Shown: piece by piece, positions 7,434 to 25,507 of the stretch
Numbering within the stretch: position 1 is the first letter of the stretch
How the letters are laid out: each line of letters opens with the position of its first letter
Source: a virus
DNA: 25,507 bases
Virus record (IMG/VR): IMGVR_UViG_3300007541_000192
Coordinates: 1-25,507 of that record
Reading direction: 5' to 3' (one strand)
The notes under the pieces: model-generated
The model's database searches: none
What the model was told of the DNA's origin: nothing
What the model saw: only the letters and a program-made list of their open reading frames with translations
Program-made: the position numbers and the translations under genes

Positions 7434-10400
7434 GTACTTCCCTAGAAACTACCATGAGATCTTAGATACAATAACCCCTAAGATCTATATTGAAGAGGAT
7501 CTTAATATAAGCTCTCTTAAGAGCCAAGATTTATTAGATTCAATTCTTCAAAGCATAATCTATTACTCAGAGAATAGTTTTAAATTCTCTGATCCTGCTG
7601 ATTATTATAAAAACCCTCTTCTAGTTTCTGGAGTAGGTGCCCTTTCAGGTATCAATTCTCCATCGGGTATGCTCAAATACTTTGAGCCTCACTCTGAACT
7701 TAACACTATTAGACCTGATGATTTTGAGCTTGAGATTCTAAAGCCGTTAGGTTATTCCTTAAAGGATTTTGATACTTCCACTGCGTTATTTACATTCATT
7801 AGAGGAACAATTTACAATAAGATAGGAAGCACCCCCACGGATTTCGCAGACCTAGCAGATAAAACAGCAAGCGCATTCGGATCAACACCAGAAGAGACCC
7901 ATGAATATCTAGCCAACTCTATGGGTCTTTGGTATTTTCTAGCTTATCAGCCTACAAACACTTACTCTAAGGCACCTAGAAACTATACATCAGAGACGAT
8001 TGCGAGAAAACTATCTCAAGGTCAGACCTTAACAACAGCAGACGCCGTTAAGGATTACTTCAGATATCTGTGGAATAACTATGAAACCCTAATAGATCCT
8101 GTAATTGATTTAGGCGCTCTGATTCCATCTTTCGGGGTTTCTGGTACTGGCATTCATACTAGCGGGACTCAAGGTCTTGATCGTATTCTTACTTTAGTAG
8201 ATGTTCTTTACAAAGAAGGTGAGTTAAGAGAGAAGGACAGGTATGTAAAGGATGTCTTCGACCAATATGTTCAAACAGGATATGTACCAAACACCTTGGT
8301 AAGACAAGGACCTTTCTCTAAGTTCATGAGAGCAGTCTCCTATATGATGGGAGATATTGATGAGTACAACGCCAAGATAAAAGCATCAAAAGCTATAGAC
8401 GATTGCCCAGAGTATCTACTACCGTATCTTGGAGATATTATTGGATGGAAATTCTATGGTGCCAATTCGGCATCTTGGAGAAGACAGCTTAGGTCTGCGA
8501 TAACTCTTTACAAAAAGAAGGGAACTAAAGACGGTCTTATAAAAGCATTTACAGCCGTACTCCCAGGAGTTCCAATTGATTTGGATACTAGCATCACAGA
8601 GATGTATGAATCATACATTCCTAACCTGATGTACTATCTTCTTGTAACTGAGTCTCCAATGCTAAGTAGTCTAGAGGCTTGGACTTTTAACAGGGCTCTA
8701 AAGTTTAATCAAGGAGAGTATGCTCCAAATAACCTAGACACCAACATCAGATATTGCGTAGATCATATTATGCTCCGCGCAGTAGAGAAGTTTCCTGAAA
8801 TCTTTAACATTAAAGGTTATCCTTTTGATGTTAAGGATCCGAACTTCCTTTTCAATTATAGAGATCGTGATTTCCATATACCACCTTGGGAAGAAGAGAA
8901 GTTCTATATGTCATGCGATCTCCATGAGGAGGTTGTTAAATTCTTTAGAGACGAGATCGTATGTTTAGGAGTTCCTGATTATTACGGAGATTACTTTGAG
9001 AATTATGTTCTTGACAGGACAATACGAGGGTTTCAACCAACAAAGAGATACGAGAACACTTTCTTATTCTTCACAGACACTGTTCAGTTCGCACCAAACT
9101 ACGAAAGGATTACAAAGTATTCTTCAGTAGACTTATTGAAGTACCTAACTCTTTGGAGTGGAAAATCTTCTCACTTTGATTTCACTCTTTCAGGGTCATC
9201 CTTTGAAGAATCCACCTTACTTGACAATTTAAATTACAGCAAGGAAGACTTCTTCGCAGCTTTGGGAGTTGTTAACGACTTCACTCCCGCTAAAGCTGTA
9301 CCTAGAGTACACTTTGATCTTACAGCCTTAGAGCTTGCGAAGGATGCTGACCACTTATATCCAAAGGTAAAGTATTCACTAGTAGACTTCCCTACAAGCG
9401 GTGTCATGGCATCTCAGGCATATTCTGGTCTAGACATGAGACACCCTGATCTAGGGTTATTAGGGGCATATAGAATACCTTCCTTCACTGAAGACCCACA
9501 CAGAACCCATGTCAGCCACCAGGACTTACCAGTTTTCAAAAGAGAGCAATCTGATTACTGGCAATACGGTGTAAAGAACAACTGCTATTCGTTTGATACA
9601 ACTATATCATCAGGACCTTTAACAGTCTCCGGTCCTTATGACGCAGAAGCACAGAGAACATCCATAAGAAGAAGGGACTTCTCACAGAAGCTTTCAAAAG
9701 GAGAGAATTACTTAAAGAACCATACAGCGGGTCCTAACTTCTATCTGTCTATGTCGGGAGGTGAAGTATACGAATCCCTAGAATCTTCCGCTGGAGACCC
9801 TCCTTATAATTACTTAACGCTTGGACTTGATCCAAGAAGCGGATTGTTCGCAGAACCAGATATCCATAATTTAAAAAACACTGTATGGGACAGGTGTGAA
9901 AACATTTATTCTCCAAATATTTATGGAGGTGCGTCAACCTCTGCTACTTACGAAATACGAGGACCTCTTGAATGGGATACTAGTGCGATAGATGTAGAGA
10001 GGGAGCATCATTTTGTAGACAGAAGTAATACTAGTGAGGTAAGATACCTTCTCTTTAAATTAATTGATCAGAAGATAGAAGGAGAGGCTGAGGCGATTTT
10101 TGGAAATGCTCCTGTTCTATTTTCCAAAGATTTAAACAGTCATGATATTATTGGGTCAATAAAGGCTCGTCTTTGGGAAGATAAGGATTTATCAGAAGAA
10201 GATTACTTCGAGTTTGCGTTTAATACTTGGAAACCTTCTTGTAGGCATATGTTCTACACGGTACACAGGCTATACGATTTCTATATGAGGAGCTTTGATT
10301 ACCACAGGCTTTCAGATAAGGAACTTGAAAAGCTAGTTGACGGAGGAGGTTCTATAATTTCACACGCATATGGACCCATAGCACATAACGCAGGGTTTAG

Positions 10401-12009
10401 AGTCCTAGGTCCTTCTAGTCTTTTATTCGGTGCAGGCTTAGTACCACCAGCCCCAGACAGAAGAATAACAACAGATGTAGCTAACGAGTATGAAAATGCT
10501 GTAAGATCAGGAACCTTCGCAAATATTAATGGAATATATAATCAAGTTTCTAGAGAGCGAGATTTAGTTCCAGGTAAATACAGAGAGGGTAGAACCTTTG
10601 GTAACATTAGCGGAGTTGAACTAGTAGATAAAGATTCAGAGATAGACTCCGTGGGCTATACTTCTAAAAACAAGTTTATGTTATTGAACTTGTCAGATGA
10701 TAACAACAGAATAGAAGAGCCTAACTTCCTCCATAACAGATACTCCATAATTATGAAAAGCCTTGAAAACTTCCCAAGGCTTAGATTTAATATAGGAAGT
10801 AATATTTACGAACCCCTACTAACTCAACCTAATGTTCCTCAATATTACGGTGATAGGATTAATAAGCTGCTTCCAGAACATGAGTTTACCTTAACATTAA
10901 GTTCTCAGTTTTTAAGAGAGTTTTCTAATGTAGCTGGTGGAGGTTCTGTTGGAGTCTGGATTCATACAATTCCTGAATTAGATACATGGGGTAACTATGT
11001 TTTCTGGAACTACATGCCTGATGGAAAGTGGAAACTTATAAAAGCATCAACCGTACATCAAAAAAAGGAAGGGGTTAAGATTGTAAAGAACGAGTTGTCT
11101 CATAGAAAGTATATTGATCTTCTCAATGTAGATGAGCTTGTTTGCTATGAAAACTTAAGTGCTCCGAAATCTGTTCTCTTATCCCTTAAAGAAACTGATT
11201 TAGATCAGTTTACTATAAAATTTAATACTAAGAATAGAAACATTAAGTGCCCTCCCGAGTATTACAGAAACCATAAACAAGTCCACAGAGAAGATCAAAA
11301 TTATGTCATAGAGGTATTCCCTGAAAACTCTTCTGACACTTCAAGATTTTGGATAACGACTGGAATAAATGTTAGAGATGAGGATCTATACAAGTGTACT
11401 TTCTTAAACCATTACTTTAAGCATGATGACTATTCAAGGATCACAACTCCAACTACAGAATCTTCTCAGTTCATACGACCAGATAATACAGTAGTTCCAT
11501 TCGGAACCTTGTTGTGGGCTGATTCTAGCGGAGGTGTGTATGAGGGAGATACTAGATTAACATTAGCTCATACTTTAAAGAACAACCTTAATGATGAGCT
11601 TCCTAAGCTTTATAAGACGGCTGAGATTTATACTGACTCAAAGTGGATAATAACTGAAAACATTATTGTTAATGTTGGAAAGGACATTCATGAAGGATAC
11701 TTTAGCCAGTTAAGTGAGGACGAATTCTCCCCCTCCTCTGTTAAAGTATTACCTAAGGACTTAGGAACCCATATAATCAAGGATGGTGAGTATCATACTT
11801 CAATATCTCCACAGGATATGATGGTTATTCTAAGGTTCTTTAAATCAATGAGTGATGATGATCAATCAAGATTTATAGGATTGTCTGAAAGAGTTCATGG
11901 TGAATACGGGGGTAGTAGACTAAATTACAGAATCCACCCAGGAAGCTATGAGACAACCACCAGCTATGAGACAAGAGGTGTCTATAATACATTGGAGTTT
12001 ACTAACTGA
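7426..12009 (+). CDS. Giant baseplate wedge protein with P2 GpI-like tail-protein-I core
   Basis: This is a 1527-residue protein; P2 GpI is far smaller and T4 gp7 is about 1030 residues. Residues about 300-382 match the tail-protein-I pattern: MRAVSYMMGDID, then CPEYLLPYLGDIIGWKFYG (327-345), then WRRQLRSAITLYKKKGTKDG (351-370). This is the CP-x-x-LLP-x-L...W-R...Y-x-x-KGT signature. The N-terminal 130 residues (MYKYFPRNYHEILDTITP) look helical and may contact the GpJ-like ring. The remaining 1100 residues are not recognised. They are Tyr/Phe/Asp-rich, mixed alpha/beta, low in cysteine and without obvious enzyme motifs or sequence repeats. The gene follows gpJ as in P2, and its final TGATG starts the first adhesin gene. 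I infer that it forms the outer wedge to which fibres attach. Confidence is high for a GpI relation in the N-terminal third and low for the rest. Confidence 0.75.
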   Translation: MYKYFPRNYHEILDTITPKIYIEEDLNISSLKSQDLLDSILQSIIYYSENSFKFSDPADYYKNPLLVSGVGALSGINSPSGMLKYFEPHSELNTIRPDDFELEILKPLGYSLKDFDTSTALFTFIRGTIYNKIGSTPTDFADLADKTASAFGSTPEETHEYLANSMGLWYFLAYQPTNTYSKAPRNYTSETIARKLSQGQTLTTADAVKDYFRYLWNNYETLIDPVIDLGALIPSFGVSGTGIHTSGTQGLDRILTLVDVLYKEGELREKDRYVKDVFDQYVQTGYVPNTLVRQGPFSKFMRAVSYMMGDIDEYNAKIKASKAIDDCPEYLLPYLGDIIGWKFYGANSASWRRQLRSAITLYKKKGTKDGLIKAFTAVLPGVPIDLDTSITEMYESYIPNLMYYLLVTESPMLSSLEAWTFNRALKFNQGEYAPNNLDTNIRYCVDHIMLRAVEKFPEIFNIKGYPFDVKDPNFLFNYRDRDFHIPPWEEEKFYMSCDLHEEVVKFFRDEIVCLGVPDYYGDYFENYVLDRTIRGFQPTKRYENTFLFFTDTVQFAPNYERITKYSSVDLLKYLTLWSGKSSHFDFTLSGSSFEESTLLDNLNYSKEDFFAALGVVNDFTPAKAVPRVHFDLTALELAKDADHLYPKVKYSLVDFPTSGVMASQAYSGLDMRHPDLGLLGAYRIPSFTEDPHRTHVSHQDLPVFKREQSDYWQYGVKNNCYSFDTTISSGPLTVSGPYDAEAQRTSIRRRDFSQKLSKGENYLKNHTAGPNFYLSMSGGEVYESLESSAGDPPYNYLTLGLDPRSGLFAEPDIHNLKNTVWDRCENIYSPNIYGGASTSATYEIRGPLEWDTSAIDVEREHHFVDRSNTSEVRYLLFKLIDQKIEGEAEAIFGNAPVLFSKDLNSHDIIGSIKARLWEDKDLSEEDYFEFAFNTWKPSCRHMFYTVHRLYDFYMRSFDYHRLSDKELEKLVDGGGSIISHAYGPIAHNAGFRVLGPSSLLFGAGLVPPAPDRRITTDVANEYENAVRSGTFANINGIYNQVSRERDLVPGKYREGRTFGNISGVELVDKDSEIDSVGYTSKNKFMLLNLSDDNNRIEEPNFLHNRYSIIMKSLENFPRLRFNIGSNIYEPLLTQPNVPQYYGDRINKLLPEHEFTLTLSSQFLREFSNVAGGGSVGVWIHTIPELDTWGNYVFWNYMPDGKWKLIKASTVHQKKEGVKIVKNELSHRKYIDLLNVDELVCYENLSAPKSVLLSLKETDLDQFTIKFNTKNRNIKCPPEYYRNHKQVHREDQNYVIEVFPENSSDTSRFWITTGINVRDEDLYKCTFLNHYFKHDDYSRITTPTTESSQFIRPDNTVVPFGTLLWADSSGGVYEGDTRLTLAHTLKNNLNDELPKLYKTAEIYTDSKWIITENIIVNVGKDIHEGYFSQLSEDEFSPSSVKVLPKDLGTHIIKDGEYHTSISPQDMMVILRFFKSMSDDDQSRFIGLSERVHGEYGGSRLNYRIHPGSYETTTSYETRGVYNTLEFTN

Positions 12010-14390
12010 TGAAAGGAGAAGTTCAGGTATTTGCCATGGGCAATAACGGGGAGCAAAGACTCCTAAAAGAATCCAACCTAATAATGGACGGGTTCGGTGA
12101 GTGTGTAGCTACAATATTAACCACTCCTTCGTCAATTGTTTCAAATGCGGAACATGGTGTATCAGATGATGTTTTACAAAGGCTTGATACCTCTAACTTT
12201 ACAATAGGTTCTATAGCGTTTGGCAAGGGGACTAAAGGTTTCATGCATAACGCACATGATATTAAGAATGTGAATATGCTAGGGTTCTCCGAGAACCTAT
12301 TTGAGAACTTCGATGCTACTGCTACCTGGGTAGCTGGAAACTGGGGTAACACTCCCACATGCTTGCTTTCAGTAACCTCATCCACCGAGACCGCTGGAGA
12401 CTTGAGTAGTTCCGTTACTCACTTAAACGCAAGCTCTGCTTCCACAAGCAGGGTGGCTAATAATCTTTCCCAGTTCGTTACGACTAAGCCTTTAAACGCT
12501 CTTTATGATTCACTGAACTTCTCAGTAGATTTCAAGTTTGATTTTGAAAATGCTTCACAAAGTTGTAACGCTGACAATGAGAGGTTTTCAGCTATTAGCA
12601 TATCACAAACAAGTAGTACAGCGACTCCTTATGATTTAATATCTCAAAGGTTTAATACTATAAAGTGGGATGTAAGTGGAAACGGAACTCTTCTAAACTC
12701 TTCAGAAGACCCTAACGGAGATTTCTCACACGGTTACATAAAGAAGCTTGGAAATGGTTGGCACCGATTAACATGTGTTCTTGAGCCTGCATATTATCAA
12801 GCCTTACCTTCTACAGATATACTTTACCCTTACTGGTTCGAACAAGGTAGTATAACTTCGTCGTTAGACTATAACGGACATCCTTTATACAATGATCAGG
12901 ACTATGAAACTGAGGAGATTGTGGGATCAGATCCTGTCACTGATAGAGTTGGGTATATCTATGGAACCAATGGGATAGACTTAGATACTCTAGATTTCGG
13001 ATATGGTCCTAACACCACCGCACAGTTTAGTTTCTTTTTAAAGAAAACAGATTCACATGTTAGGGTATCCCTAACCAAGTATTCTCCAGTAGAGGAAGTA
13101 CTTGACCTGACCCTTTCTGCAACTAACGGAGATTTAATAACAACGACTGCTTCGTCTATAAACCATAGCTACGAGGTAATTGATTACAGCAGTGAGTGGT
13201 TTAAGATAAATTTCAACATAGTTGATACAGTGGGAGACGCAGAAAGATATCGTATATTAATATATCCAAAAGGAGATGCGTCTGCTCCTACTAATAGTTG
13301 TGTTGTATGGGGTCCAAAGCTATTCCTAAAGAGGGATGCGGGGTTCATGCCTTCATTAAATCATGACATCACCTGCACAATATATCCAACATTACCCATA
13401 CCTGCAAAAGCTTTATCTGGAAGTGATAGATTAAACCTTACTGTAGATCCTTCCGACTTAACTGGAGGTATTTATATATCAAGACCTAGCTTGTCATACG
13501 GTACTTCTCCAGCTATATACACCCCAACGACAGGGTACGATAGCGACTACCCAGTGGATCCACTTCATGCATACCTAGTCGAGATGTCTGTTAATTTCTA
13601 TGGATTATCAGGACAAGGTACGCTATATTCTGACACCTCTTCTGTACACCCTATAAGCAATCCTCCTAGAATACCGAACCCTAAGGACAAGCTTCTTGAG
13701 TATGGTGTTAGACTTCCTGTGGAATCTTATAAAGATTATGTTTTTGATATTGATAAGAACTTAAACTACTTAGGGTTCCCTACTCATGAATTACCTATTG
13801 AAGGGGTGGAGTCTTCTGATAGCATTGATGGTTTTGGTCTTAGAGGAGACGCTAGGCACTTTGGAGCCTATTGCCCCTCTGCTGGTGCAGTAATCTCTCT
13901 TCTTTCTGGAACAGGTGCCGCAGACTACAGAACACCAGCTTCTTCTGTTGAGTATAGTGCTGGTGTAAATCATCCTGATAGAAGAACCATGGATAAGAAC
14001 GGCCATATAAATGCTTATTATCCAACCAGAGGAGAAACCCAGGATGCATTTGGAAGACTAATAGTGTCAGCCAACCCAGACTTCTCTTCCACAGGAGAGC
14101 TTTCCTGCATATGCATTATACCTTCAGGGGATGCTGCTGTATCAAACATGTATGGTGGCATATTTGAAGCAGGACTGTACGCCATGGACCACGAAGAACT
14201 TCTTAAAAATGCCGTCATACCTTTTGGAGTGGCTTCAAAAAGTGTGGATATTGGGAAAGACTTCAACTATAAGTTGATAGCTAAGAAGACCTTTAATGAT
14301 AATATAGTTGTTGCAAGAGATTATCTTACATCAGCAGGGATAGCCCTTCACGGAAATATAAAATTAGTTTGGAGATTGAAGTTCCTATGA
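12009..14390 (+). CDS. Adapter/adhesin A: framework domain split by jelly-roll carbohydrate-binding-like inserts
   Basis: This 793-residue protein starts in a TGATG overlap, with GGAG 11 bases upstream (11994-11997). The start is supported because its first residues (MKGEVQVFAM) align with the starts of the next two proteins. The framework begins at 1-80: GEVQVF, then SNLIMDGFG, then FTIGSIAFGKGT. It seems to be resumed near 715-793, with a beta segment (ELSCICIIPSGDAAV), then IFEAGLYAMD and the closing HGNIKLVWRLKFL. Between them lie about 650 residues. Two segments resemble the jelly-roll modules of phage adhesins. The first starts ENLFENFDATATW (about 95) and has the NGWHR signature at 249-252. 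The second has TAQFSFFLKK (about 338), SEWFKINFNIVD and VVWGPKLFLKRDAGFMPS (about 434-452). Residues 530-700 are unrecognised. It is likely a baseplate-proximal fibre or receptor-binding protein. It could instead be non-adhesive decoration. Confidence 0.65.
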   Translation: MKGEVQVFAMGNNGEQRLLKESNLIMDGFGECVATILTTPSSIVSNAEHGVSDDVLQRLDTSNFTIGSIAFGKGTKGFMHNAHDIKNVNMLGFSENLFENFDATATWVAGNWGNTPTCLLSVTSSTETAGDLSSSVTHLNASSASTSRVANNLSQFVTTKPLNALYDSLNFSVDFKFDFENASQSCNADNERFSAISISQTSSTATPYDLISQRFNTIKWDVSGNGTLLNSSEDPNGDFSHGYIKKLGNGWHRLTCVLEPAYYQALPSTDILYPYWFEQGSITSSLDYNGHPLYNDQDYETEEIVGSDPVTDRVGYIYGTNGIDLDTLDFGYGPNTTAQFSFFLKKTDSHVRVSLTKYSPVEEVLDLTLSATNGDLITTTASSINHSYEVIDYSSEWFKINFNIVDTVGDAERYRILIYPKGDASAPTNSCVVWGPKLFLKRDAGFMPSLNHDITCTIYPTLPIPAKALSGSDRLNLTVDPSDLTGGIYISRPSLSYGTSPAIYTPTTGYDSDYPVDPLHAYLVEMSVNFYGLSGQGTLYSDTSSVHPISNPPRIPNPKDKLLEYGVRLPVESYKDYVFDIDKNLNYLGFPTHELPIEGVESSDSIDGFGLRGDARHFGAYCPSAGAVISLLSGTGAADYRTPASSVEYSAGVNHPDRRTMDKNGHINAYYPTRGETQDAFGRLIVSANPDFSSTGELSCICIIPSGDAAVSNMYGGIFEAGLYAMDHEELLKNAVIPFGVASKSVDIGKDFNYKLIAKKTFNDNIVVARDYLTSAGIALHGNIKLVWRLKFL
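14371..14376 (+). promoter_or_regulatory. Ribosome binding site that decides the start of adapter/adhesin B
   Basis: GGAGAT lies ten bases before the ATG at 14387. It overlaps the alternative upstream TTG codon (14369), which has no such site before it. This favours the ATG, which also forms an ATGA overlap with the previous stop. Confidence 0.5.
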
Positions 14391-16960
14391 TTGGAGAAGT
14401 TACAGTTACTAAAGTTTATAAAGATGGCAGACGAGAAGTTGTCATCAAGAACGATAGGAATATGATAACAGATGGCTTAGGTATATCCTTAGTTAATCTT
14501 TTCACATTAAACCCACTAAACCCCAGGTACATTCTTGATAACTTTAAACTAGGTTACTTTCAAGTAGGGACATCAGGAGTTTTTGATAAAGGACCAGTAC
14601 CTTCCGATTTTGAAGATTGGGAATCCTTAGTACCTGATTCAATAGGAAACAATTTCTATGAGTTATCAACCCCATTAACAATAGGAGAATATGGGGAAGA
14701 CACCACCTTAAAACCAGCAACCAGAAAGATTATTACGGTATCTAATCCCTTTGCTGATGCTAAAGATTTAGACTATTACTACAAGGACGCTAACATAGTT
14801 GAATTTGAAGAGGATCCTGTAACTAGGATAACTGAAAGCGCGATTCATGTAAAAATAAACATTGATGAAAAGGGGTGTAATGGTCAAGAAATATCAGAGC
14901 TAGGGTTATTCATTAAGAACCCTGAAGTATTTCAATCTAGAGAGCGTCCATGTTTAGCTGCGTACAAACTTCTTTATGAGCCTATATTAAAGAACGAGGA
15001 ATTTTCTATTGACATTGATTGGGTACTATACTTTTCAGACGCGGAGGCTGGGTATAAGAAGAACACCGACGCGAATCTACTCTACTTTAGCCCTGCCGTA
15101 AAAGCTCAAAATAAACCTGGAAGTGTTTACGCAACCTACATGGAAGAGAGTGAGGTTTATAAAGTTACAATAGAGACACCTGTTCCTTTAGAGGAAGATG
15201 GATACTTGTACTACTCAGTCTCTGGTGATGCTGTTAGTGGTCTTCACTATCAAATAGACAAACCATCTCCCGTATTTATGTCTAAAGGATCAACAAAAGT
15301 AGAGTTACAAGTTTCCTCTCTAGATGTCTTTACTCATTATTTCTCTCCAAAAAAGCTTTACATAAATTTATCTAGATTTACAGGACCGAGAAACTTACCC
15401 GTTAAGGAAAGAGATCTTCTGTCCGATCAGTTCCTTATTCATCTAAGAACTATAAACCCTGCACCTATAGTAAGGTTATTAACCCCAACAGAGGGTGTAT
15501 TAGATGACAACCCTTTCAATCTTTCAGCCGCAATTGAATTTAATAACGGTGTTTTAGGTCCTGAGTATTTAAGCGAGGACATTCAGGTTTACTTACAGTT
15601 ATCTTCAGACAGATCCCTAGAGTTCTCTTCTGGGATATTAACTATACCAGCAGGTGAGCGTGTTGGAAGTATTTCTATACAGACAACGGGGACGGGTCCT
15701 ATAGGCGTTTCTTCATACAATACTCTTTCATCTAATTCTCAGTATAACTACTTTGCACATTCAAATAACTTCGGATTCTCTAAAGCCCTGTCTTCATATC
15801 CTTTAACAGAACCTAGTCAGATTGAAGAGATGATTACTGAAAGGTATTCGTTTGTCCCTATTAACGGAAGCGGGTGGTATTCTGATAAGTTTATGCCCTG
15901 GACTCCTGCCTATGTCTGGTTCCCAGGAGACCCTACCCTTAAAGTACATAGTAATTATGATCTGTGGTCAGCACAACCTCCACTTGAGGTTTTTTCACAG
16001 CTTAGTTCTTTAGATGCAGCAGCGCCTGATGGTGTTCAAGACGCAACCTTATGCTATACTCCGTGCTCAGTGTATGCTTGGTATGCCAGGAAACCTGTAG
16101 ACATAAACAACCCTGGTCTTTTTGCTGGTGCAACTAAAATAAGAAGAGAGTATACAAGTGATGACCCTAATGGATTGAATATATCACCAGGAGGTGATAG
16201 CCAGAGATTCTATTTTGAAAATACTACTGACGGGTCATCAATATCTTTGTCTGTATATTTCAAGAAGATAGAAGGTACAGTTACGGTAGGCGATCAAACT
16301 GTTAAAGCTTCCCCAGTAATTAACATGAGCATCTACTCTAGAGGATTCCCAGGGCTCACTCCCCAAGAAGCACCTAATCACTCAACAGTTGGAAAATCAG
16401 CCACTTTTGTTTGGAACGAGTCCACGGGTGGATTAGAGCTTAGTGGTATTACAGCGGAAGGAGCTTGGACTAATAACGGTCAGCTTAGTGATGCTGGCGT
16501 CTTTTCTGGAGTTGGTTATGATTCCGCTAAATTCGGGTTTGACGATAAGTGGGCGAGCGTAGAAAATGGTTGGTATAGAGCATATATAACTGTATTGGTT
16601 GACAGAGACTTTACAGACCAAGGAATATATGCGCCATTAACCTATGAAGGAACGGGTGCTGTTTCTCAATACTTTATACATTACTCTGTAGATTCTGACG
16701 GGGATTTATCTCAGCTTCCTGGGTACAACGATGGAACTTATGTGAAGAGTGACCTTGGAGATCTTACGATACCTGTTGATATGTCAGGAAGTATTTTGGC
16801 TTGGGGTCAGTGGGAATATGGTATTAATGAACGATCTGGGGTTTATAAAGGATTCCCTAGGCAATATCAGCCTAACGGAGATTCAATATTCTCCCCCCTA
16901 GGAAACTGCTTCATGAATAATAACTTTTCTTCTGTAGAGGTTCCACAAGGGATTAGCTAA
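14387..16960 (+). CDS. Adapter/adhesin B: framework domain, two Calx-beta-like domains, jelly-roll domain
   Basis: I start it at ATG 14387 (857 aa) rather than the in-frame TTG at 14369. The ATG overlaps the previous TGA, has a GGAGAT site, and gives MIGEVTVTKVYKDG, matching the start of its two relatives. Residues 1-225 are the framework domain: NMITDGLG, NFKLGYFQVGTSG, LSTPLTIGEYG, ISELGLFIKNP and FSIDIDWVLYFSD. Residues about 245-355 fit a Calx-beta domain, with the diagnostic SGDAVSGLHY near 277 and SKGSTKVELQV. Residues about 360-450 fit a second one, with GILTIPAGERVGSISIQT. From YNYFAHSNNF (about 450) the chain becomes jelly-roll-like: LSVYFKK near 618, NGWYR at 727-730 and LAWGQWEYGINERSG near 803. 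These domains commonly mediate calcium-dependent or glycan contacts, so a host-binding fibre is the likeliest role. The architecture is clear; the ligand is unknown. Confidence 0.7.
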   Translation: MIGEVTVTKVYKDGRREVVIKNDRNMITDGLGISLVNLFTLNPLNPRYILDNFKLGYFQVGTSGVFDKGPVPSDFEDWESLVPDSIGNNFYELSTPLTIGEYGEDTTLKPATRKIITVSNPFADAKDLDYYYKDANIVEFEEDPVTRITESAIHVKINIDEKGCNGQEISELGLFIKNPEVFQSRERPCLAAYKLLYEPILKNEEFSIDIDWVLYFSDAEAGYKKNTDANLLYFSPAVKAQNKPGSVYATYMEESEVYKVTIETPVPLEEDGYLYYSVSGDAVSGLHYQIDKPSPVFMSKGSTKVELQVSSLDVFTHYFSPKKLYINLSRFTGPRNLPVKERDLLSDQFLIHLRTINPAPIVRLLTPTEGVLDDNPFNLSAAIEFNNGVLGPEYLSEDIQVYLQLSSDRSLEFSSGILTIPAGERVGSISIQTTGTGPIGVSSYNTLSSNSQYNYFAHSNNFGFSKALSSYPLTEPSQIEEMITERYSFVPINGSGWYSDKFMPWTPAYVWFPGDPTLKVHSNYDLWSAQPPLEVFSQLSSLDAAAPDGVQDATLCYTPCSVYAWYARKPVDINNPGLFAGATKIRREYTSDDPNGLNISPGGDSQRFYFENTTDGSSISLSVYFKKIEGTVTVGDQTVKASPVINMSIYSRGFPGLTPQEAPNHSTVGKSATFVWNESTGGLELSGITAEGAWTNNGQLSDAGVFSGVGYDSAKFGFDDKWASVENGWYRAYITVLVDRDFTDQGIYAPLTYEGTGAVSQYFIHYSVDSDGDLSQLPGYNDGTYVKSDLGDLTIPVDMSGSILAWGQWEYGINERSGVYKGFPRQYQPNGDSIFSPLGNCFMNNNFSSVEVPQGIS

Positions 16961-17011: not shown

Positions 17012-17596
17012 ATGAAAAAAGAAACCACATATAACCCTGTAGGAAGACTTCAAATTTGGAAAGTTTTTAACGACAGGGATAAGGATAAGGAGCTTGTTTG
17101 GGACGAGCACAATGTCATTACATCTGGAATGGGTGTCGGCTTGTCTCATTTATTCTCTGCGTCAGGATCTACATCTATAGCAGATTATCAAATAGTAAAT
17201 TTTCAGATAGGTACTGGAGGTGATTTTGATAATTATGGAGCTTATACTTTTAGATTGAATTCTCCTTTAGATGCATCTGACTATGGTAATGAGTCTAGCT
17301 TTGTTCAAGAGAGTCTTTTCCCTATAGAGAATGGGGCATTAGGAACATCAGGAACTTTTGGAAAGATTCGATTTAGTAACATACATAAAATTAACAAGAC
17401 TGCTGTAAGGTTTACTATTGTATTGGACAGCAATACAGCAAACATTACGGAACAGTTAAGTGAGATAGGGTTGTTTATGAGAAACCCAAGAGGTTTGGTA
17501 ACGCCCTCTCCAATCCTTGTTGCCTACAGACCCTTCGTTGAAATATCAAAAACGAGAGACTTCTCGTTAATCTTTATTTGGACAATACAATTCTAA
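17012..17596 (+). CDS. Adapter C: minimal framework-domain protein
   Basis: This 194-residue protein consists almost entirely of the domain shared with the two preceding larger proteins. Visible blocks in order are GRLQIWKVFND (about 10-20), HNVITSGMGVGLSHLF (about 34-49), NFQIGTGGDFDNYG, RLNSPLDASDYGNESSF, then a beta strand (AVRFTIVLD), LSEIGLFMRNPRG and a final FSLIFIWTIQF. Each block has a counterpart in adapter B at the same order and spacing. The sequence is beta-rich, has no cysteine, and shows no signal peptide or membrane segment. It ends one base before the next gene (TAA, A, ATG). As the shortest family member without added adhesin domains, it may be the adapter that carries the following beta-helix protein. 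That partnership is an inference from gene order only. The ATG at 17012 lacks a good Shine-Dalgarno site. Confidence 0.65.
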   Translation: MKKETTYNPVGRLQIWKVFNDRDKDKELVWDEHNVITSGMGVGLSHLFSASGSTSIADYQIVNFQIGTGGDFDNYGAYTFRLNSPLDASDYGNESSFVQESLFPIENGALGTSGTFGKIRFSNIHKINKTAVRFTIVLDSNTANITEQLSEIGLFMRNPRGLVTPSPILVAYRPFVEISKTRDFSLIFIWTIQF

Positions 17597-17597
17597 A

Positions 17598-20500
17598 ATG
17601 GCTGGATTCGATATAGATGACCTTTACACTGTTAGTGCTGGCGTTCTCTTAAGTGACTACTGGAACCCTTTTGTAACTAAGCACGACACTAGTTCCTTCT
17701 ACAACTGGGAGCAGGACAACCTTCCTCTGTATGATTTAGAGGAGCGCACTGATTACCTATGGGAGAAATTAGGATACCCTACTTCATCTCTTCCTGGAAT
17801 GGTCCTTGCTGTATCATCTTCGATCCCTACTCACTTAGATGTAAGTTGTAACTTCTTCCTAGATCTTTCATCAGCCATTAAAGCCCTACCTGAAGTTCTG
17901 CACATGCCCGTCTTGATTGAGGTCTGTGCTTCAGGGTATCTTGGTGATTTAGAGCTAGACAATATAAAATGCATGGGCGATGGAGCCTTGGAAATTATAA
18001 ACAGGGCTTCTGCTAGAGTTATAGGGTCTGATCCACACAAAACTTCATCTTCTGATTTTTCAGCCGTAACATTTGCCAACGACATTAATGGATATGGAGC
18101 AATACTTGCAATCAGTTCTGGTGATTATCAGAATGTAGTCGCTGATACTTCTTGTTTATTAGCATCTTCTAACGATGTAGAGTTTGTTCAGGACAGTTCG
18201 GAAGGGAAGTGTAGAGGTTTTGCTCAAGTAAGACCTCATCTATACGCTAATTCAATTCAAGGAAGGCACCTAACGGATTCTGTATCCAACACTATGAACA
18301 ATTTAGCTGATCCTAATAGACCTTTAGTAAATCCTATAGGACAAGCAAAGTATCCAACCTCTGTGGTGTTAGACTATACAACTACTTCATTAGATTCTTC
18401 TTGTAATACTTCTTACGATGATACTTTAATTACAAGAAGTAAGCCCCAAAATAATACAACGCCTGCACATGCAATAATCACATCTAACTCATTAAGACGA
18501 GTTCATATAGAGAACTGTGATGGTCCTATTTATATAAGAAACTTTATAGTTGACCCTGCTGAAGATAAAGTAACCGTCCCTTATAATTATTCTCACAGTT
18601 TCGATGAGGGTGTTGTTATTTCTAATAGCTCCAATGTTACTCTAGAAAACTTTGGAGTAATGCGCTCTAGAGGTACGGGCCTTTTACTTAAGAATTCCAA
18701 TGTAGATCTTAGAAGAGGTTTCGCAGCAAGTAGAAATTATTTACATCTAGACGCTAATACCAGAGACGAGTCTTACGGAATAAAATCTTATAATTCAACT
18801 ATTAATATTAAATCTGATAATTATGTTTCTGGTTCGGAATTCTTATTCAATATTCAGGAGCACACTGTAGGACTATACCTACATAATTCAGTTATAACGG
18901 GTGGGGATAGCTTCTCTGAAACCGACAACGGGGTATTTTGTGAACCAACAGTTCTAAACTTCTTTTCTAACAAGACCAACATAGAAGCGGTTAATTCAGA
19001 AATATCAACTAAGGGATTGATAACATGCTACAACGGTGATAAGGGATTAAGAGCAGTAAACTCTACTTTAATTCTAGATGGTATAAACATAGAGGCTAAT
19101 GAAGATGTTGGTATGGAGCTTATAAACTCCCATGTTAGATATGGTGGAAGTAATTCTAGGCAGTCTGGAGACCTGATGGCTTATGGTGCTGAGGCTTCTT
19201 ACTTAGCTCACACCCCCTACACTTATCAAATATCCTTTACTAGTAATGGTCGTCATATGACCATGCATAATTCAACTTTTAAGCTAGATGATGTAGAGAC
19301 TGGAATCGCTCAAGTTGATGTAGCTCCTTTTGTATTCTTTGCAAACCACCACGGATCTGATTCATATAAAGAGGTTGGACACACCCTAGCTCCAGCCGTA
19401 TACTGTAACGGTTCTCTGTTAGAACTGGCTCATGCTAGAATGTTCTCTCCTAGAAGTAGTAGCACTACTTTATCTACAGAGTTTGATTTAGATATAAAGA
19501 GAACGGTTAAAGGTATTCTCATAAAAGCTGAGAATAATTCTACGGTTGATTTCCACGGAAGTCGTTATGGTGCAACTCAACTTGTAGGCCCTAATGAAAT
19601 GGCAAAGCAACGAAAGTCTGTAGGTGTTTATTCTGGTAATAACTCTACTGTACGATTCATGGGTCCAACTTTTATGGGCCAATGCTCAGTAAATGCTTAC
19701 GCAGATAAGAATTCATCAGTTGAGTTTTGTCCTCATAAAACTCAGGAAGGTGGCCTAGCCGTTAGCTCTTGGGAACTAATCAATGGATTGAATCACACTA
19801 TGGTCGAGCTTCATTCCACCAGAGCTTGTTTAGTTGCTGATAACGGTTCTCTTATAAGTATGAGAGATCTTGGGGACTACCACACATCATGGAATAGAGA
19901 CGATATAGGAACTTCGGTATCAGCAGCAGACTACGGCACAGGTACTGATACTCAAGGGTATGAGTCCTCGTCTTACTTTGCAAGCGGTGGTATGATCTTC
20001 TTACCTAATCCAGATGAGACTGTATCTTATCTTAGACGATACGATCTTGACCCTAATTTTAGCAACAAAGTATCTCCAGTCGCAAACCCACATACTTATG
20101 GCGTATTTAGTACACCTTCACTCATAGGTTCATCTACTTATTACTCAACATTCTTAGATCAACCTTATGCTTCTATGAGTGAGGCAGACTTCAGTGCTAT
20201 ATCATTAGGGGGCTTCTGTATAAAGGCTATGAATGGTAGTAAGGTTGATAGTCTTAATGTTCACTTTGTTCCTGGACCAAACAATACAGACAAAGAGTTT
20301 TATTCTCCTGCACACGAAAGTAATAATGCGGGGTGTTATAACTTAAGGATTTGGAATATTGGAGACGGTTCTCACTTAAACGCTGCGTACTGCTCAGTCA
20401 GTGGAACTTACCCAGGGCAAGCCCCATATTGGGGTCCACGATCCGTATGGCAAAAACCAGGAACCGATTGGTATACTAATCAAGGAAGAGCTAACACTTC

Positions 20501-21359
20501 GGCAATAGGAGAAACAGCCTTTAGCGGTATAAACTACGCAACTTCAGGTACTAGATTCGGAACTGCCGTAAAAAGATACGACCCTGAGTTTAAAAACTAT
20601 AGTATTCTAGATAGTTATGGAGAGTCTGTTGCTTTAAATACGAACTACACTCTTAGCTATGCTGCTATATCAAAAGCTAAATCGGAATATTTGATAAACA
20701 ACTCGTTAACAATTAACGATTACTCTGCTGTAGGAGAAATCATGAGATATCCCAATGGTACTGCAATACAGCAACATACGGATACGGGATCACTCGCGGG
20801 TGATTACGAAACACTAGCCTGTAGATGGATTGGTATGAACGGATCTAATGGACCATTCAATAGAGGTCCGTTCAGACTATACTTTTCTACAAAGCCTTCT
20901 GTAAATTACCTGTGTCCTTCTGGATCAACTCCAGGAGATAATACGATTGCACAAGTATTCGCGCAGGGTTATCATGCCTCTGGAGACTGTAGTGCTGTAA
21001 ACGATGAGATTGCCGTACTTAATGCTCCTGACCTTATGGTGGTGTCTGGTTCTTTCTGGGACGAAGTTGAAAATATAGGATTCATAACAAATCAGGACGC
21101 TTGGGGTTTTGAAGGTTACTATCATGTAAAAGACTTCGTAGATCCAACCTTTAGAAACAGGGTTATGCTAGATGAATCTGCAAGTAATACTTTTGCAAAT
21201 GCAAAACACTGTTCATCTGAATTCAACGGAAGACCTGCCCTTCTTAAAATTTACAGGGCAACGACTACAGAAGAAGGTGAAGGTCACTCACCCAGCTTAA
21301 ACGAGATAGGTAGAGGATACAGAACATCCAACCTGTTTGATTTCGATAGGAGAAACTGA
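17598..21359 (+). CDS. Beta-helix tail fibre or tailspike protein
   Basis: This protein has 1253 residues. The first ~65 residues hold a likely docking segment, with FYNWEQDNLPLYDLEERTDY near 34-53; a close copy of its core occurs in the next protein. Residues about 70-150 contain a beta segment with LDVSCNFFLDLSSAIKALPE, like the leading part of pectate-lyase-fold spikes. From about 300 to 930 there is a ladder of short rungs, each with an N-[NG]-S turn followed by alternating hydrophobics: NSSNVTLENF, LKNSNVDLRR, YNSTINIKS, VNSTLILDG, MHNSTFKLDD, NNSTVDFHG, NNSTVRFMG, KNSSVEFCP, NGSLISMRD, NGSKVDSLN. This is the signature of a right-handed parallel beta-helix. The last ~320 residues are different, with several Trp/Gly-rich blocks, and may bind receptor or trimerise. 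No Peptidase_S74 chaperone domain is seen. Depolymerase activity is possible for such folds, but no catalytic residues can be assigned. Confidence 0.75.
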   Translation: MAGFDIDDLYTVSAGVLLSDYWNPFVTKHDTSSFYNWEQDNLPLYDLEERTDYLWEKLGYPTSSLPGMVLAVSSSIPTHLDVSCNFFLDLSSAIKALPEVLHMPVLIEVCASGYLGDLELDNIKCMGDGALEIINRASARVIGSDPHKTSSSDFSAVTFANDINGYGAILAISSGDYQNVVADTSCLLASSNDVEFVQDSSEGKCRGFAQVRPHLYANSIQGRHLTDSVSNTMNNLADPNRPLVNPIGQAKYPTSVVLDYTTTSLDSSCNTSYDDTLITRSKPQNNTTPAHAIITSNSLRRVHIENCDGPIYIRNFIVDPAEDKVTVPYNYSHSFDEGVVISNSSNVTLENFGVMRSRGTGLLLKNSNVDLRRGFAASRNYLHLDANTRDESYGIKSYNSTINIKSDNYVSGSEFLFNIQEHTVGLYLHNSVITGGDSFSETDNGVFCEPTVLNFFSNKTNIEAVNSEISTKGLITCYNGDKGLRAVNSTLILDGINIEANEDVGMELINSHVRYGGSNSRQSGDLMAYGAEASYLAHTPYTYQISFTSNGRHMTMHNSTFKLDDVETGIAQVDVAPFVFFANHHGSDSYKEVGHTLAPAVYCNGSLLELAHARMFSPRSSSTTLSTEFDLDIKRTVKGILIKAENNSTVDFHGSRYGATQLVGPNEMAKQRKSVGVYSGNNSTVRFMGPTFMGQCSVNAYADKNSSVEFCPHKTQEGGLAVSSWELINGLNHTMVELHSTRACLVADNGSLISMRDLGDYHTSWNRDDIGTSVSAADYGTGTDTQGYESSSYFASGGMIFLPNPDETVSYLRRYDLDPNFSNKVSPVANPHTYGVFSTPSLIGSSTYYSTFLDQPYASMSEADFSAISLGGFCIKAMNGSKVDSLNVHFVPGPNNTDKEFYSPAHESNNAGCYNLRIWNIGDGSHLNAAYCSVSGTYPGQAPYWGPRSVWQKPGTDWYTNQGRANTSAIGETAFSGINYATSGTRFGTAVKRYDPEFKNYSILDSYGESVALNTNYTLSYAAISKAKSEYLINNSLTINDYSAVGEIMRYPNGTAIQQHTDTGSLAGDYETLACRWIGMNGSNGPFNRGPFRLYFSTKPSVNYLCPSGSTPGDNTIAQVFAQGYHASGDCSAVNDEIAVLNAPDLMVVSGSFWDEVENIGFITNQDAWGFEGYYHVKDFVDPTFRNRVMLDESASNTFANAKHCSSEFNGRPALLKIYRATTTEEGEGHSPSLNEIGRGYRTSNLFDFDRRN
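21348..21353 (+). promoter_or_regulatory. Ribosome binding site before the 815-residue protein
   Basis: AGGAGA lies five bases before the ATG at 21359, within the last codons of the beta-helix gene. It is the strongest Shine-Dalgarno sequence among the junctions here and suggests high translation of the downstream protein. Confidence 0.7.
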
Positions 21360-23806
21360 TGTCACACAATAATTACGCAGAAGGTCAAGTCCCTGAGCCT
21401 CCAATTCAGTGGAAAGAAAGCCCATACAAGTTCACTGAACCAGTCAGATACTTTAAATCAAACGATCCTTACTACTGGAAAGTTGATAACATTCCAGTAA
21501 AGCAGCTTGAGGAGAATATTCTTTGGCTAAAAGATCAAGTAGGTGGTGGAGGAGGATCCGTAGGACTAACCTCTGGTATAGATCGTGTACAGATAAACGA
21601 GTTAAGACCTTTTGCTACGGAGGCCGACTTCAAGATTAATGTTAAGCCTGGGCGTTACTCTGCAAGAGTTAACGACGCTAGAAACCAAAACATCTACGAG
21701 GCTATTGTAACAAGAGCCGCTGATGTATATGAGCTTGGACTAGACGACTTTGAATTTGATGTAGATATAGATCTTATAAAAGCTATAGCAGGAGACATAA
21801 CATCCAGGGTTGTTAGCAATAACGGTTTATACGATACTGTTCTACATCACATGTGTACTCCATACCAAGGATTTCTTACTGGGTGGAGTGGAACTAAAGG
21901 TGAATATACTCAAAACTTCAAGGTTGGTATTGATAACCTACCAATCCTTAAAAGCCCTACTATTAGACAAGAGAATACAGAAGGTGTTGGAGGAGGTAGC
22001 ACTCCCTCGAATTCTCCTTCATACTCGGACCTACAACAACTCTTCTCATCCTTCATAAAGTATTGGGGTGGTGTAGCAAGAACCGCCATAGTAAATGTAC
22101 CAGAGACTTTATCAATAGATGTCGCACCTTTTGATGCATCTGAGTTTGCTAATAACACAGTGTTCGAGCCTTCTTATAGAATCGACCTTCTATTCGTTTA
22201 TTCACATCCTATTGATGCCTCTTCTAGCACTATTCTGAAGAGAGACGGCAACTCCCTAGCTCAAATTACAGCACCTCAATTAGGTATGTTGAAGGGTGCA
22301 GGCATCATAGGTCTTCAGGGTAGAGGTCCTGAGTTTGAAAACTACAATACTACTGAAGATGGAACTGATTGGATAACAAACTTTGAAGTAGGAGATTGGT
22401 TCAACGGAAAGAACGATATAAGAAATTACTTTGAGTTTGTAAACAACGAGGATTATCAGTATGGATATAAGCAAATCCTCGCTACTGTAAGTGATCAGAC
22501 TCAAGATGTTATAGGAATGGAGGGTTACTACGGTAACTTCCCATCTCCTGATGACCTTCTAAACATAGCTCCTCTTCTACAGATTGGGCTTGAGAAAAAC
22601 AACTTAGCATTAGTAGGCCAGTCTGTTCTTCCAATAGCTTATGTTATAGTTAAGAAAGACTCAACAATAATAACCAACAATGATATTATTGATATCAGAC
22701 CTTTCCTAAGAACAACAGAGCTTGCTTATAATGAGAGAGCGGGAATTGCAGCAGCATTCCCACCACTATCTTTTGCAAACCCTGCCGTTGGAAAAACTGA
22801 ACTAGCCGATACCCTCACTAAGGTTAGAGCCGAGATACTAGAAAGGATACCAATAGTTCCTGATGCACCCGCGCAGACTCCTAGAATTGTAGGTTCTGGT
22901 TTTATATTTGGTGGACTTCGTTATGGTGTTGAAGGTGCTTTATTAAGAATGGCTATCGGTCGTCCAGGAAGCAACCTCAACTTTACAGACTCTGAGGCTA
23001 GGTACGCTTTCCTAAGAAACCAAGGACACCTTCCATATAGTTCTCAGCTTAGAGATCTTCCTGATTGGGAAATAGCTCCTTGGTGTTTATCAAAAAACAA
23101 CCCAGGAACTAAAAGAAACGATAGAACTTGGATTGCTAGACAGAAAGGAAACGGTGAAGTAACTTTAGGAAACGAAAGCACTATAGATGTAAACCTAGAT
23201 CAGACTTTAGGATTCCATGATCCTATTAAGAATATAGGAGCCTTTAGTAAAGATGTTGCTGGAGGTGCTGTAGCTTTCTGTAGAAAGAGAATTGAGATTA
23301 ACAAACAACTAGTTCCTTGGATGAGAGATTTTGAGGTTATCGTTGAATATGTTAACTGTGTACCATCAACTTCTACGGAGTATTATCACAAGTTACAAAA
23401 TGATGCAGATATTTTCTATCCTCGACAATACGCAGGGCTAACTGTTTCTAAAGAAGGAGATTCGTTTACAATTATTTCTGCTCACAACTCATTCTTTAGC
23501 TCAAGAACTGAAGCTTATCCTGGGTCTAACCATCCCTGGGCTGATAACGGTCAAGGATATAACAAAGCTATTTTAAGCTACGGAACGGATTGGTTTAGAA
23601 ACGCTGGTCCAACTTATCCTAACTTCGCTGTATGCCATAGCCTTCTCGACTGGGATCAAAATGATGCTTACACTGGCGATGGAGATAAATCTCCAACTCA
23701 CCCAGTAGTTTCATGTACTTATCCAACAGTTAAGTATACTATAATTGGATACCCTGATACTTACGCTCCAAAAGTAGACGGAGGTTCAACTATCACTCTA
23801 AAGTAA
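21359..23806 (+). CDS. Virion structural protein sharing the docking motif of the beta-helix fibre
   Basis: This 815-residue protein starts in a TGATG overlap behind a strong AGGAGA site. Residues about 38-59 (NDPYYWKVDNIPVKQLEENI) mirror the docking motif of the preceding protein and are followed by a flexible GGGGGS linker (62-67). Residues about 70-200 are mixed alpha/beta, and a second Gly/Ser/Pro linker lies near 208-222. Residues about 421-448 (LPIAYVIVKKDSTIITNNDI, then IDIRPFLR) match a motif I have seen in phage baseplate and tail-fibre proteins, where a strand is followed by ‘DIRPF’. The following segment is Ala/Pro-rich (AAAFPPLSFANPAVG). The C-terminal third contains many Trp/Tyr/Asn residues and looks beta-rich. 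No enzyme motif, LamG or beta-helix ladder is seen. The likely role is a second fibre or short spike docked by the same interface. The precise function is unknown. Confidence 0.55.
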   Translation: MSHNNYAEGQVPEPPIQWKESPYKFTEPVRYFKSNDPYYWKVDNIPVKQLEENILWLKDQVGGGGGSVGLTSGIDRVQINELRPFATEADFKINVKPGRYSARVNDARNQNIYEAIVTRAADVYELGLDDFEFDVDIDLIKAIAGDITSRVVSNNGLYDTVLHHMCTPYQGFLTGWSGTKGEYTQNFKVGIDNLPILKSPTIRQENTEGVGGGSTPSNSPSYSDLQQLFSSFIKYWGGVARTAIVNVPETLSIDVAPFDASEFANNTVFEPSYRIDLLFVYSHPIDASSSTILKRDGNSLAQITAPQLGMLKGAGIIGLQGRGPEFENYNTTEDGTDWITNFEVGDWFNGKNDIRNYFEFVNNEDYQYGYKQILATVSDQTQDVIGMEGYYGNFPSPDDLLNIAPLLQIGLEKNNLALVGQSVLPIAYVIVKKDSTIITNNDIIDIRPFLRTTELAYNERAGIAAAFPPLSFANPAVGKTELADTLTKVRAEILERIPIVPDAPAQTPRIVGSGFIFGGLRYGVEGALLRMAIGRPGSNLNFTDSEARYAFLRNQGHLPYSSQLRDLPDWEIAPWCLSKNNPGTKRNDRTWIARQKGNGEVTLGNESTIDVNLDQTLGFHDPIKNIGAFSKDVAGGAVAFCRKRIEINKQLVPWMRDFEVIVEYVNCVPSTSTEYYHKLQNDADIFYPRQYAGLTVSKEGDSFTIISAHNSFFSSRTEAYPGSNHPWADNGQGYNKAILSYGTDWFRNAGPTYPNFAVCHSLLDWDQNDAYTGDGDKSPTHPVVSCTYPTVKYTIIGYPDTYAPKVDGGSTITLK

Positions 23807-23807
23807 A

Positions 23808-25507
23808 ATGTCAGTATTCCTCAACTGTCTCTTAAGAGCAAAAAACTTATTAACAGGAGGGGGATATGATCCACCTGACTGTTGTGGGGACTTTAATGGT
23901 GACGGTCCTGACGATCCTATAGATGACGGTGATGAAAGCTGTAACCCTTCTGAGGCGGGGTATTCATATTGTACTAGAAGCACTCAAGATGAAACTGGTA
24001 CAACTAAAATAGTTTCATTTAGTGTAACCTTTCAAGAACTTCTAGACAACGGAATTGTTACTGAGGATGATTGCACAGGTGCTGGTAATACCTACACCAA
24101 CTGGCCTCTTCAAATAGGGCCTGGGGCTACGGGAGATAGGGTACATGATTATATACTAGCTGTGTATATGCCAGTGGGCCACGGCGCTCCTGCTCGTTTA
24201 GGAGGTATTGCTGCTAGTGAATGCACAACTTTTGGTTGCAATGCAATAGAATGTGTTGATGCTACCGTAGAGTGTCCGTTAGACGGCTGCCAAACGATTA
24301 CTTATAAGACAGATATATTTAAATGTAGCGAATTCATGCCCCCAGGCGCTTGTTACAACGGGTGTGATAACTACTTCTTCGCAAATCCTTTGATAGATCC
24401 TCTGTTCGAGACTTATGAGGAATGTAGGGCCAAGCCTTGTTGTGATGATAGCGGTGGAGGCGGAGGAGGAAATGGCCCAACCACACCCACCCCTACCAGT
24501 CCAAGACCTACCTCACCTCAAGCACCATGTTATTTATTCAAGTGTAATCAAGTTACTAATGAATGTGACCGCGTTGAAAAAACACCTTTAGAATGGTTTA
24601 CTGAGCTAGGTATCACTACTACTGTAGTAAATCCAAGCTGTCAAACCTTGTTCGCACAAATACAAGGTCAATCCTATGATGCTCCTAATGGAATAACTTA
24701 TTATAAAAGTAAGTTTACTTGTGACTCTGAATGTGGGCCTCCCCCACCTCCTGAATGTGAATTAGATGTTTGCAAATTCTTTGGAACGCCCTTAGCACAG
24801 TGCGGGACTGAATCTAAAACTGTTTCAGAGTGGGCAGCGTTTTTCAACTTTACAGGAAGTTACGACTGTGCAGGAATAATTCAACAAGTATCCAATGGAG
24901 GAGGCATTCAGGTAGGTGTCAACAAGTACATGGCTCCTGGATCTTGTGGACCTACTAACTGTTATCCTACTAACCCTCCTGGAACTGGTATTGACCCAGG
25001 AGATATTGATGGAGGAACAAGACCTATAAATGGTTATATATTCTGTAATCTATGGTATTGCGATGGAGAGGTTCCTAAAAAAGTAAGCCCAACTCTAAGT
25101 CTTCTTGAAATAATAAATCAACTAGGTCCTCCTGTAGCTTCTAATTCTACTAACTGCAATGACCTTCCTCCTATATTCACAGGTAGTGATGGTGTGGTAT
25201 ATGCTACAAGCCCTGGAAATTTAGTATGCGAAGGTCCTGGCGGTGGAGGAGGTGCTGGTCCATTTACTCCTCCTGGAGGAACTGCTGGAGGTAGTCTGTT
25301 TGGTGGAGATGTGGGCGGAGGCGGAGGCGGTGGTGCTCCTAATCAGCAAGGTGGACTAGGTTCTGCTTTAGATGACGAGCCTGCTCCTCCAGGAAACTTG
25401 GGTGGATTTCAAACAGGTATTGATCTTGGAGGAGGTGATACTGGAGGAGGTGGTGGTGGTGCTCCTGGAGGAGGAACCGTTATAGACCCTCCTACAGGAG
25501 TTGCAGA
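23808..25507 (+). CDS. Cysteine-rich, Gly/Pro-rich modular protein of unknown family (3'-truncated)
   Basis: The frame opens at ATG 23808, one base after the previous stop, and runs without a stop to the window end, giving 566 visible residues with 33 cysteines. The other proteins here have few. Residues 28-42 (DFNGDGPDDPIDDGD) look like a calcium-binding Asp/Asn loop of dockerin or thrombospondin-3 type. Residues 51-150 may hold a diverged module. A Cys-dense region (about 140-216) precedes a Gly and Thr/Pro linker (about 217-239). Three modules then start at residues 241, 317 and 413, each with C-x4-C-x31-C-x(23-26)-C and a central helix-like L/W-rich segment (LEWFTELG, SEWAAFFN, LEIINQLG). 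From about 477 the chain is Gly/Pro-rich. No signal peptide or membrane segment is evident. Last in a tail-adhesin cluster, it may be a virion adhesin or fibre tip. I do not recognise the family, so the function is open. Confidence 0.6.
   Translation, partial: MSVFLNCLLRAKNLLTGGGYDPPDCCGDFNGDGPDDPIDDGDESCNPSEAGYSYCTRSTQDETGTTKIVSFSVTFQELLDNGIVTEDDCTGAGNTYTNWPLQIGPGATGDRVHDYILAVYMPVGHGAPARLGGIAASECTTFGCNAIECVDATVECPLDGCQTITYKTDIFKCSEFMPPGACYNGCDNYFFANPLIDPLFETYEECRAKPCCDDSGGGGGGNGPTTPTPTSPRPTSPQAPCYLFKCNQVTNECDRVEKTPLEWFTELGITTTVVNPSCQTLFAQIQGQSYDAPNGITYYKSKFTCDSECGPPPPPECELDVCKFFGTPLAQCGTESKTVSEWAAFFNFTGSYDCAGIIQQVSNGGGIQVGVNKYMAPGSCGPTNCYPTNPPGTGIDPGDIDGGTRPINGYIFCNLWYCDGEVPKKVSPTLSLLEIINQLGPPVASNSTNCNDLPPIFTGSDGVVYATSPGNLVCEGPGGGGGAGPFTPPGGTAGGSLFGGDVGGGGGGGAPNQQGGLGSALDDEPAPPGNLGGFQTGIDLGGGDTGGGGGGAPGGGTVIDPPTGVA
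24528..24722 (+). repeat. Cys module A (C-x4-C-x31-C-x26-C)
   Basis: This is the first of three tandem protein modules. Cysteines fall at module positions 1, 6, 38 and 65, with an additional one at 13. The central segment is TPLEWFTELG at positions 19-28. A proline-rich linker (GPPPPP) follows. Confidence 0.7.
24756..24947 (+). repeat. Cys module B (C-x4-C-x31-C-x25-C)
   Basis: In the second module, cysteines fall at positions 1, 6, 38 and 64, with an extra one at 16. The central segment is TVSEWAAFFN. A Pro/Gly/Asp linker (about 30 residues) follows before module C. Confidence 0.7.
25044..25229 (+). repeat. Cys module C (C-x4-C-x31-C-x23-C)
   Basis: In the third module, cysteines fall at positions 1, 6, 38 and 62, with no extra cysteine. 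The central segment is SLLEIINQLG, whose last residues coincide with those of module A. It leads directly into the glycine-rich tail. Confidence 0.7.
25233..25507 (+). repeat. Glycine/proline-rich low-complexity coding tract
   Basis: The last ~90 codons are dominated by Gly (GGA, GGT, GGC), Pro and Ala, with runs of five or more glycines interrupted by short variable segments (APNQQ, DLGGGD, APGGGT). The reading frame is kept throughout. The layout recalls the glycine-rich motifs of T-even gp38 adhesins, but no direct match is claimed. Confidence 0.5.

Follow-up and report, generated by a model that had tools for sequence, protein, structure and literature searches.

In exchangeable-tip tail fibres and receptor-binding proteins of phages, one conserved domain is joined to a hypervariable modular region. 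The genes of the T4-like myovirus baseplate and fibre block follow the order gp25, gp6, spike, PAAR, prohead protease and gp23-like capsid protein. Among small disulfide-bonded folds, Kunitz/BPTI domains (PF00014) have the Cys pattern C-x8-C-x15-C-x7-C-x12-C-x3-C, with Cys30-Cys51 as one of their disulfides, while in the inhibitor cystine knot the 1-4, 2-5 and 3-6 disulfides thread a ring. The window analysed here is the 25,507-base virus record IMGVR_UViG_3300007541_000192, which ends within the gene of a Cys-rich protein. With moderate confidence, we interpret this protein as a structural tail protein of a T4-like myovirus that carries a disulfide-stapled, fast-changing array serving host contact or stiffening. 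It shares with exchangeable-tip fibres the combination of one conserved domain with a hypervariable modular region, but in the opposite orientation: here the C-terminus is conserved, and the N-terminal part is variable and probably rich in disulfides.

The open reading frame of the Cys-rich protein (23808-25505, plus strand) remains open to the contig end and codes for 566 amino acids with 33 Cys, the count given in the earlier note; the truncated gene as a whole spans 23808-25507 (plus strand) and includes 566 of about 1,273 codons. The 3' end, which that note had wanted recovered, was obtained from a near-identical strain, L002 (IMG/VR 3300034374_004182, a 46.8 kb contig), where the full gene lies at 6001-9822. 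The L002 protein has 1,273 amino acids, with all 33 Cys within the first 474 residues, followed by a repetitive Gly-rich linker and then by a Cys-free C-terminal domain of about 570 amino acids. Upstream of the gene, on one strand, are homologues of gp25 and gp6 and a spike-like protein. Directly downstream in L002 is a gene in the PAAR slot with a weak PAAR match (E 0.028), a slot that has clear PF05488 matches in several relatives, and this is followed on one strand by a prohead protease (Peptidase_S77) and a gp23-like capsid protein. All of the T4-like marker genes (gp25, gp6, S77 prohead protease and gp23-like capsid) are present, and by gene content the locus corresponds to the block of tail and head genes in a T4-like myovirus. 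The gene order is that of the T4-like baseplate and fibre block, but the Cys-rich gene had no counterpart that we could find in annotated phages. From this order the protein would be located in the baseplate, fibre or tip region of the tail, and the placement at a fibre tip made in the earlier note is plausible. The tail role is drawn from gene order because fold searches with the model of the C-terminal domain (pLDDT 80) gave no usable match, and such absence of a family proves nothing.

Two pairs of neighbouring proteins in the window share features of their own. The adjoining proteins of 14369-16957 and 17012-17593 have weak matches to phrog_5417 (E 0.32 and 0.002), which suggests a common N-terminal domain. 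The proteins of 17598-21359 and 21359-23806 both carry, near the N-terminus, a motif like (Q/V)DN(I/L)P(V/L)..LEE, perhaps a shared attachment segment of fibre proteins.

Within the window, the Cys-rich protein begins with a short N-terminal peptide conserved in relatives (MSVFLNCLLRAKNLLT; 23808-23855) that contains one lone Cys at residue 7. Residues 45-139 (23940-24224) form a possible diverged module-like segment. A fourth module copy had been proposed at residues 51-140, but this region was not matched by the module profile described below; in the L028 orthologue, a similar segment occupies the same region with its Cys placed differently and with two more of them. A dense Cys cluster of different layout follows (residues 139-212; 24222-24443), with 11 Cys in 74 residues, and then a Gly/Pro/Thr-rich linker (24444-24527) that precedes module 1. 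Modules 1 (24528-24734; profile E 9e-11) and 2 (24756-24962; profile E 4e-6) have six Cys each, and module 3 (25044-25229), assigned from the alignment and a profile E of 0.087, has four, lacking the third Cys and one of the two at the end. A repetitive Gly-rich linker (25230-25507) completes the truncated gene; all of these features are on the plus strand. The contig ends at a repeat that is matched in the L002 contig: the Gly-rich coding repeat of 25385-25507 matches two places there, and the 185-260 or so bases between those places are absent from the window through either a real deletion or an assembly collapse.

Cys at positions 1, 6 and 38 were confirmed in the segments that begin at residues 241, 317 and 413. 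A fourth Cys is present at 65, 64 and 62, respectively, as the earlier note had stated, but its description of four-Cys modules applies to module 3 alone, which retains C1, C2, C4 and one terminal Cys. Module 1 has Cys at 1, 6, 13, 38, 65 and 69 and module 2 at 1, 6, 16, 38, 64 and 69, so that the third and sixth Cys of both had been missed. When Cys were placed at random, three copies of this exact pattern arose in 27 of 100,000 trials; at least three copies of some three-Cys pattern arose in about 43 % of trials, and exact spacing by itself is thus weak evidence for a module. This last figure is what could be said for a chance or compositional origin of the regular Cys in a Gly/Cys-rich low-complexity protein. 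Such an origin is scarcely credible, however, given that a module profile significantly matches tandem arrays of other phages and that the fold predicted for module 1 is confident and compact.

The tandem arrays were found in related phages, whose contigs were fetched with the capsid proteins of L002 and of a second contig, L029; a few further contigs were fetched with an alignment of the C-terminal domain. The L029 protein has 13 tandem copies of a module, C1-x4-C2-x(4-7)-C3...C4...[YF]-x(4-6)-C5-x(3-5)-C6, in which hydrophobic and aromatic residues separate C1 from C2. The six-Cys module in general reads C-x4-C-x(4-10)-C...C...[YF]-x(4-6)-C-x(3-5)-C. A module profile of 57 positions found 13 copies in L029, 11 in L096, nine in the truncated L031 and one or two in several other relatives. 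In the window it detected modules 1 and 2 significantly and module 3 marginally (E 0.087). The modules are therefore real, as tandem arrays in relatives and two modules of the window are found by one profile. The exact C-x4-C-x31-C spacing does not define the domain: the gap from the second to the fourth Cys is 17 to 38 in relatives, C-x4-C being invariant in full modules and the C2-C4 distance not. The exact spacing is a coincidence of the window protein alone.

A total of 33 genes in the same slot were listed, two of which are partial copies of L002, leaving 31 distinct genes that share the C-terminal domain. Among complete genes, the region before this domain ranges from 60 to 1,258 amino acids and from 0 to 101 Cys, and module number varies likewise (13, 11 and at least nine). 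The lone early Cys (residue 7-10, in the short N-terminal peptide) is present in 26 of 28 complete relatives. The N-terminal regions consist of 6.8 % Cys and 0.36 % His, and the C-terminal domains of 0.2 % Cys. In L090 and L143 the Cys region is almost wholly absent, which indicates that it is an accessory part. The genes thus have a fixed C-terminus and a variable N-terminal region, and the short N-terminal peptide appears to be fixed as well, with the array between the two fast-changing. The Cys-free form in L143 comes from a contig of the single-cell genome Prochlorococcus AG-409-P03; as a pointer to the host, this distant member is only a hint. In L066, a long Thr/Pro run (TTTTTTTTP repeats, L066 1-200) replaces much of the Cys array. 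The N-terminal regions of L084 and L131 have tandem four-Cys modules, Y-x-C...G-x-C...G-x-Y-x-T-x3-C-x3-C, apparently smaller relatives of the six-Cys form.

The earlier note had left open whether the Cys bind metal or form disulfides. Among N-terminal regions with at least five Cys, 22 of 26 had an odd total (P=5e-4); the 26 counts are not independent, and by cluster 17 of 21 were odd (P about 0.007). This bias is expected if one lone N-terminal Cys is accompanied by pairs. Between close orthologues, Cys tended to be gained or lost in twos (L022/L027 and parts of L002/L028). CxxC was depleted (52 observed against 104 expected, z -6.1) and C-x1-C even more so, whereas C-x4-C, C-x6-C and C-x3-C were enriched. 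Taken together, parity, paired changes, depletion of CxxC and scarcity of His favour disulfides over metal, making them the better of the two readings on statistical grounds.

The reducing cytoplasm in which the protein is made, and its high and modular Cys content, would suit zinc or iron-sulfur sites in metal-stabilised structural or nucleic-acid-binding units folded in that compartment. Nevertheless, the CxxC or Cys/His pairs typical of Zn ligands are under-represented (z -6.1 for CxxC; His at only 0.36 % of N-terminal regions), C-x1-C is rarer still, Cys tend to change in twos and the odd totals fit pairs plus one; we therefore regard metal binding as very unlikely. No thioredoxin, glutaredoxin or DsbA genes were found in 17 related fragments, although such a gene could lie elsewhere in these genomes, and the simplest route is hence oxidation that follows lysis and needs no phage enzyme. 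A search for Erv1/Alr was uninformative, as its control matched nowhere.

The pairing of the Cys was approached through modules that have lost some of them. The four-Cys modules of L084 and L131 align over their full length with the six-Cys module and lack C1 and C4, and this joint loss suggests a C1-C4 bond. Five modules lack C3; by eye, four of these (window module 3 and modules of L022, L018 and L100) end in a single Cys, located at C6's distance from the aromatic residue, and the fifth, in L027, keeps C5 and has an extra Cys. As loss of C3 thus mostly goes with a single terminal Cys, a C3-C5 bond is suggested. A first automated test of Cys co-loss was null, owing to an ambiguous anchor rule, and a stricter scripted rule gave P=0.027. 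With C1-C4 and C3-C5, C2-C6 follows by elimination. Co-loss, in few cases, thus suggests the bonds C1-C4, C3-C5 and C2-C6, which differ from the 1-4, 2-5, 3-6 arrangement of the inhibitor cystine knot.

The structure of module 1 was predicted by AlphaFold with 41 module sequences (pLDDT 92.3), giving strands at 3-9, 14-20, 51-53 and 59-61 and helices at 22-28, 40-46 and 64-71. Nearly all of the top structural matches (Foldseek, VIA-align) were Kunitz/BPTI domains, with 42-43 residues superposed on BPTI 16-58 at about 2 Å; the scores were modest, Z reaching 4.1 at best and the Foldseek E being 0.56. The offsets of the strands and helices place C3 at BPTI Cys30, C5 at Cys51 and C6 at Cys55, and the C3-C5 bond suggested by co-loss agrees with the position of the Kunitz disulfide Cys30-Cys51. 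The likeness would consist of the predicted hairpin and C-terminal helix with [YF]-x(4-6)-C-x3-C. However, the module has no counterpart of the N-terminal segment with the inhibitory-loop residues Cys5 and Cys14, would have C1-C4 as an additional pair together with a helical insertion, and differs in Cys spacing (C-x4-C-x6-C-x24-C-x26-C-x3-C in module 1), only the last interval agreeing with that of Kunitz domains.

No match to PF00014 was obtained at E up to 1. Profile-profile homology between the six-Cys module and Kunitz domains was not upheld, the score of 10.8 (with manually entered Kunitz sequences) being within permuted controls, and for the four-Cys modules of L084 and L131 only a 15-column helix motif rose above permuted controls. 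AlphaFold could have been drawn to the Kunitz fold by the C-x3-C helix motif. Given the modest fold scores and the lack of supported sequence homology, the module is described as Kunitz-like and not as Kunitz. The claim that no named domain has this spacing accordingly stands for sequence families and needs qualification for structure, as the fold predicted for module 1 resembles the Kunitz/BPTI core.

That closest predicted fold would be expected if the array consisted of working Kunitz-type inhibitors shielding the particle from proteases of the host, grazers or the medium. Since the alignment covers BPTI 16-58 only, Cys14 has no counterpart and the protease-binding loop with its Cys14-Cys38 bond is not reproduced; with Cys5 and most of the inhibitory loop also unmatched, no Pfam Kunitz match and no profile homology, a role in inhibition is highly improbable.

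For the window protein and its relatives, no significant match was found in Pfam, PHROGs, NCBIfam or PDB sequences, which supports the earlier view of a structural phage protein, modular and rich in Cys, that had not been described before. Searching 50,697 annotated phages by tblastn with L029, L090, the window protein and its C-terminal domain gave no match, and a profile search of cyanophage S-RIM32, Flavobacterium phage immuto and two huge phages, run with no positive control, found none. No species genome carrying the C-terminal domain was found. No account of arrays of Cys-rich modules in phage tails, or of Kunitz domains in tailed phages, was found in the open-access literature. The Cys-rich tail proteins of the huge phage LR756511.1 are alike by composition but were rejected as relatives, because neither the C-terminal nor the module profile matches them; one tail-region protein of this phage (L010, 28553-30574) has tandem FDCISFCHPPS-type repeats with 31 Cys and is unrelated by profile. 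The module and the C-terminal virion domain would thus both be new families, missing from Pfam, PHROGs and NCBIfam.

Under our preferred interpretation, the C-terminal domain (about 570 amino acids) and the short N-terminal peptide probably anchor the protein in the virion. Between them would lie small modules, stapled by disulfides and connected through Gly/Pro-rich linkers; every full module is predicted to form a beta-hairpin and C-terminal helix, resembling a Kunitz core that lacks the inhibitory segment. Oxidation to disulfides most likely takes place once lysis has released the particle from the reducing cytoplasm. This would give the particle a rigid and exchangeable surface, resistant to proteases, for contact with the host cell or for stiffening of the assembly; we infer host contact as the first choice and a stiff stalk as its main rival. 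It is unexpected, given assembly in a reducing cytoplasm, that an uncultivated T4-like phage group spends a long, fast-changing gene on a Cys-dense virion region. Should the disulfides be confirmed, phage tail diversification would gain a further route, an exchangeable surface module held by disulfides, and post-release oxidation of the virion would become directly testable. A further, tentative possibility is that the array acts as a maturation device timed by redox state: floppy and reduced during assembly in the cell, it would fold on post-lysis oxidation, which would switch on adhesive or mechanical competence, with the Kunitz-like family having evolved separately in phages.

A purely mechanical Cys region would be a stiff stalk or collar of stapled beads between two virion anchors, with receptor binding left to other fibre genes. 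The conserved N-terminal peptide and C-terminal domain suggest that both ends are held, and the neighbouring genes (1,253 and 815 amino acids) look like separate fibre proteins. However, a length of 60 to 1,258 amino acids and absence from some members are unlike a fixed spacer, and amino-acid change between near-identical strains is concentrated in the Cys-rich region, so that this alternative seems rather doubtful. The window and the L002 contig are 99.86 % identical over 25.5 kb, with five amino-acid changes in the first 500 residues of the Cys-rich protein and three in the remaining 7,900 or so residues of the window. This gene has many silent changes as well, and recombination as well as selection may therefore act on it. 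A second hot spot of difference from L002 was observed at 7426-12006, with nine silent and two amino-acid changes, while most other genes had none.
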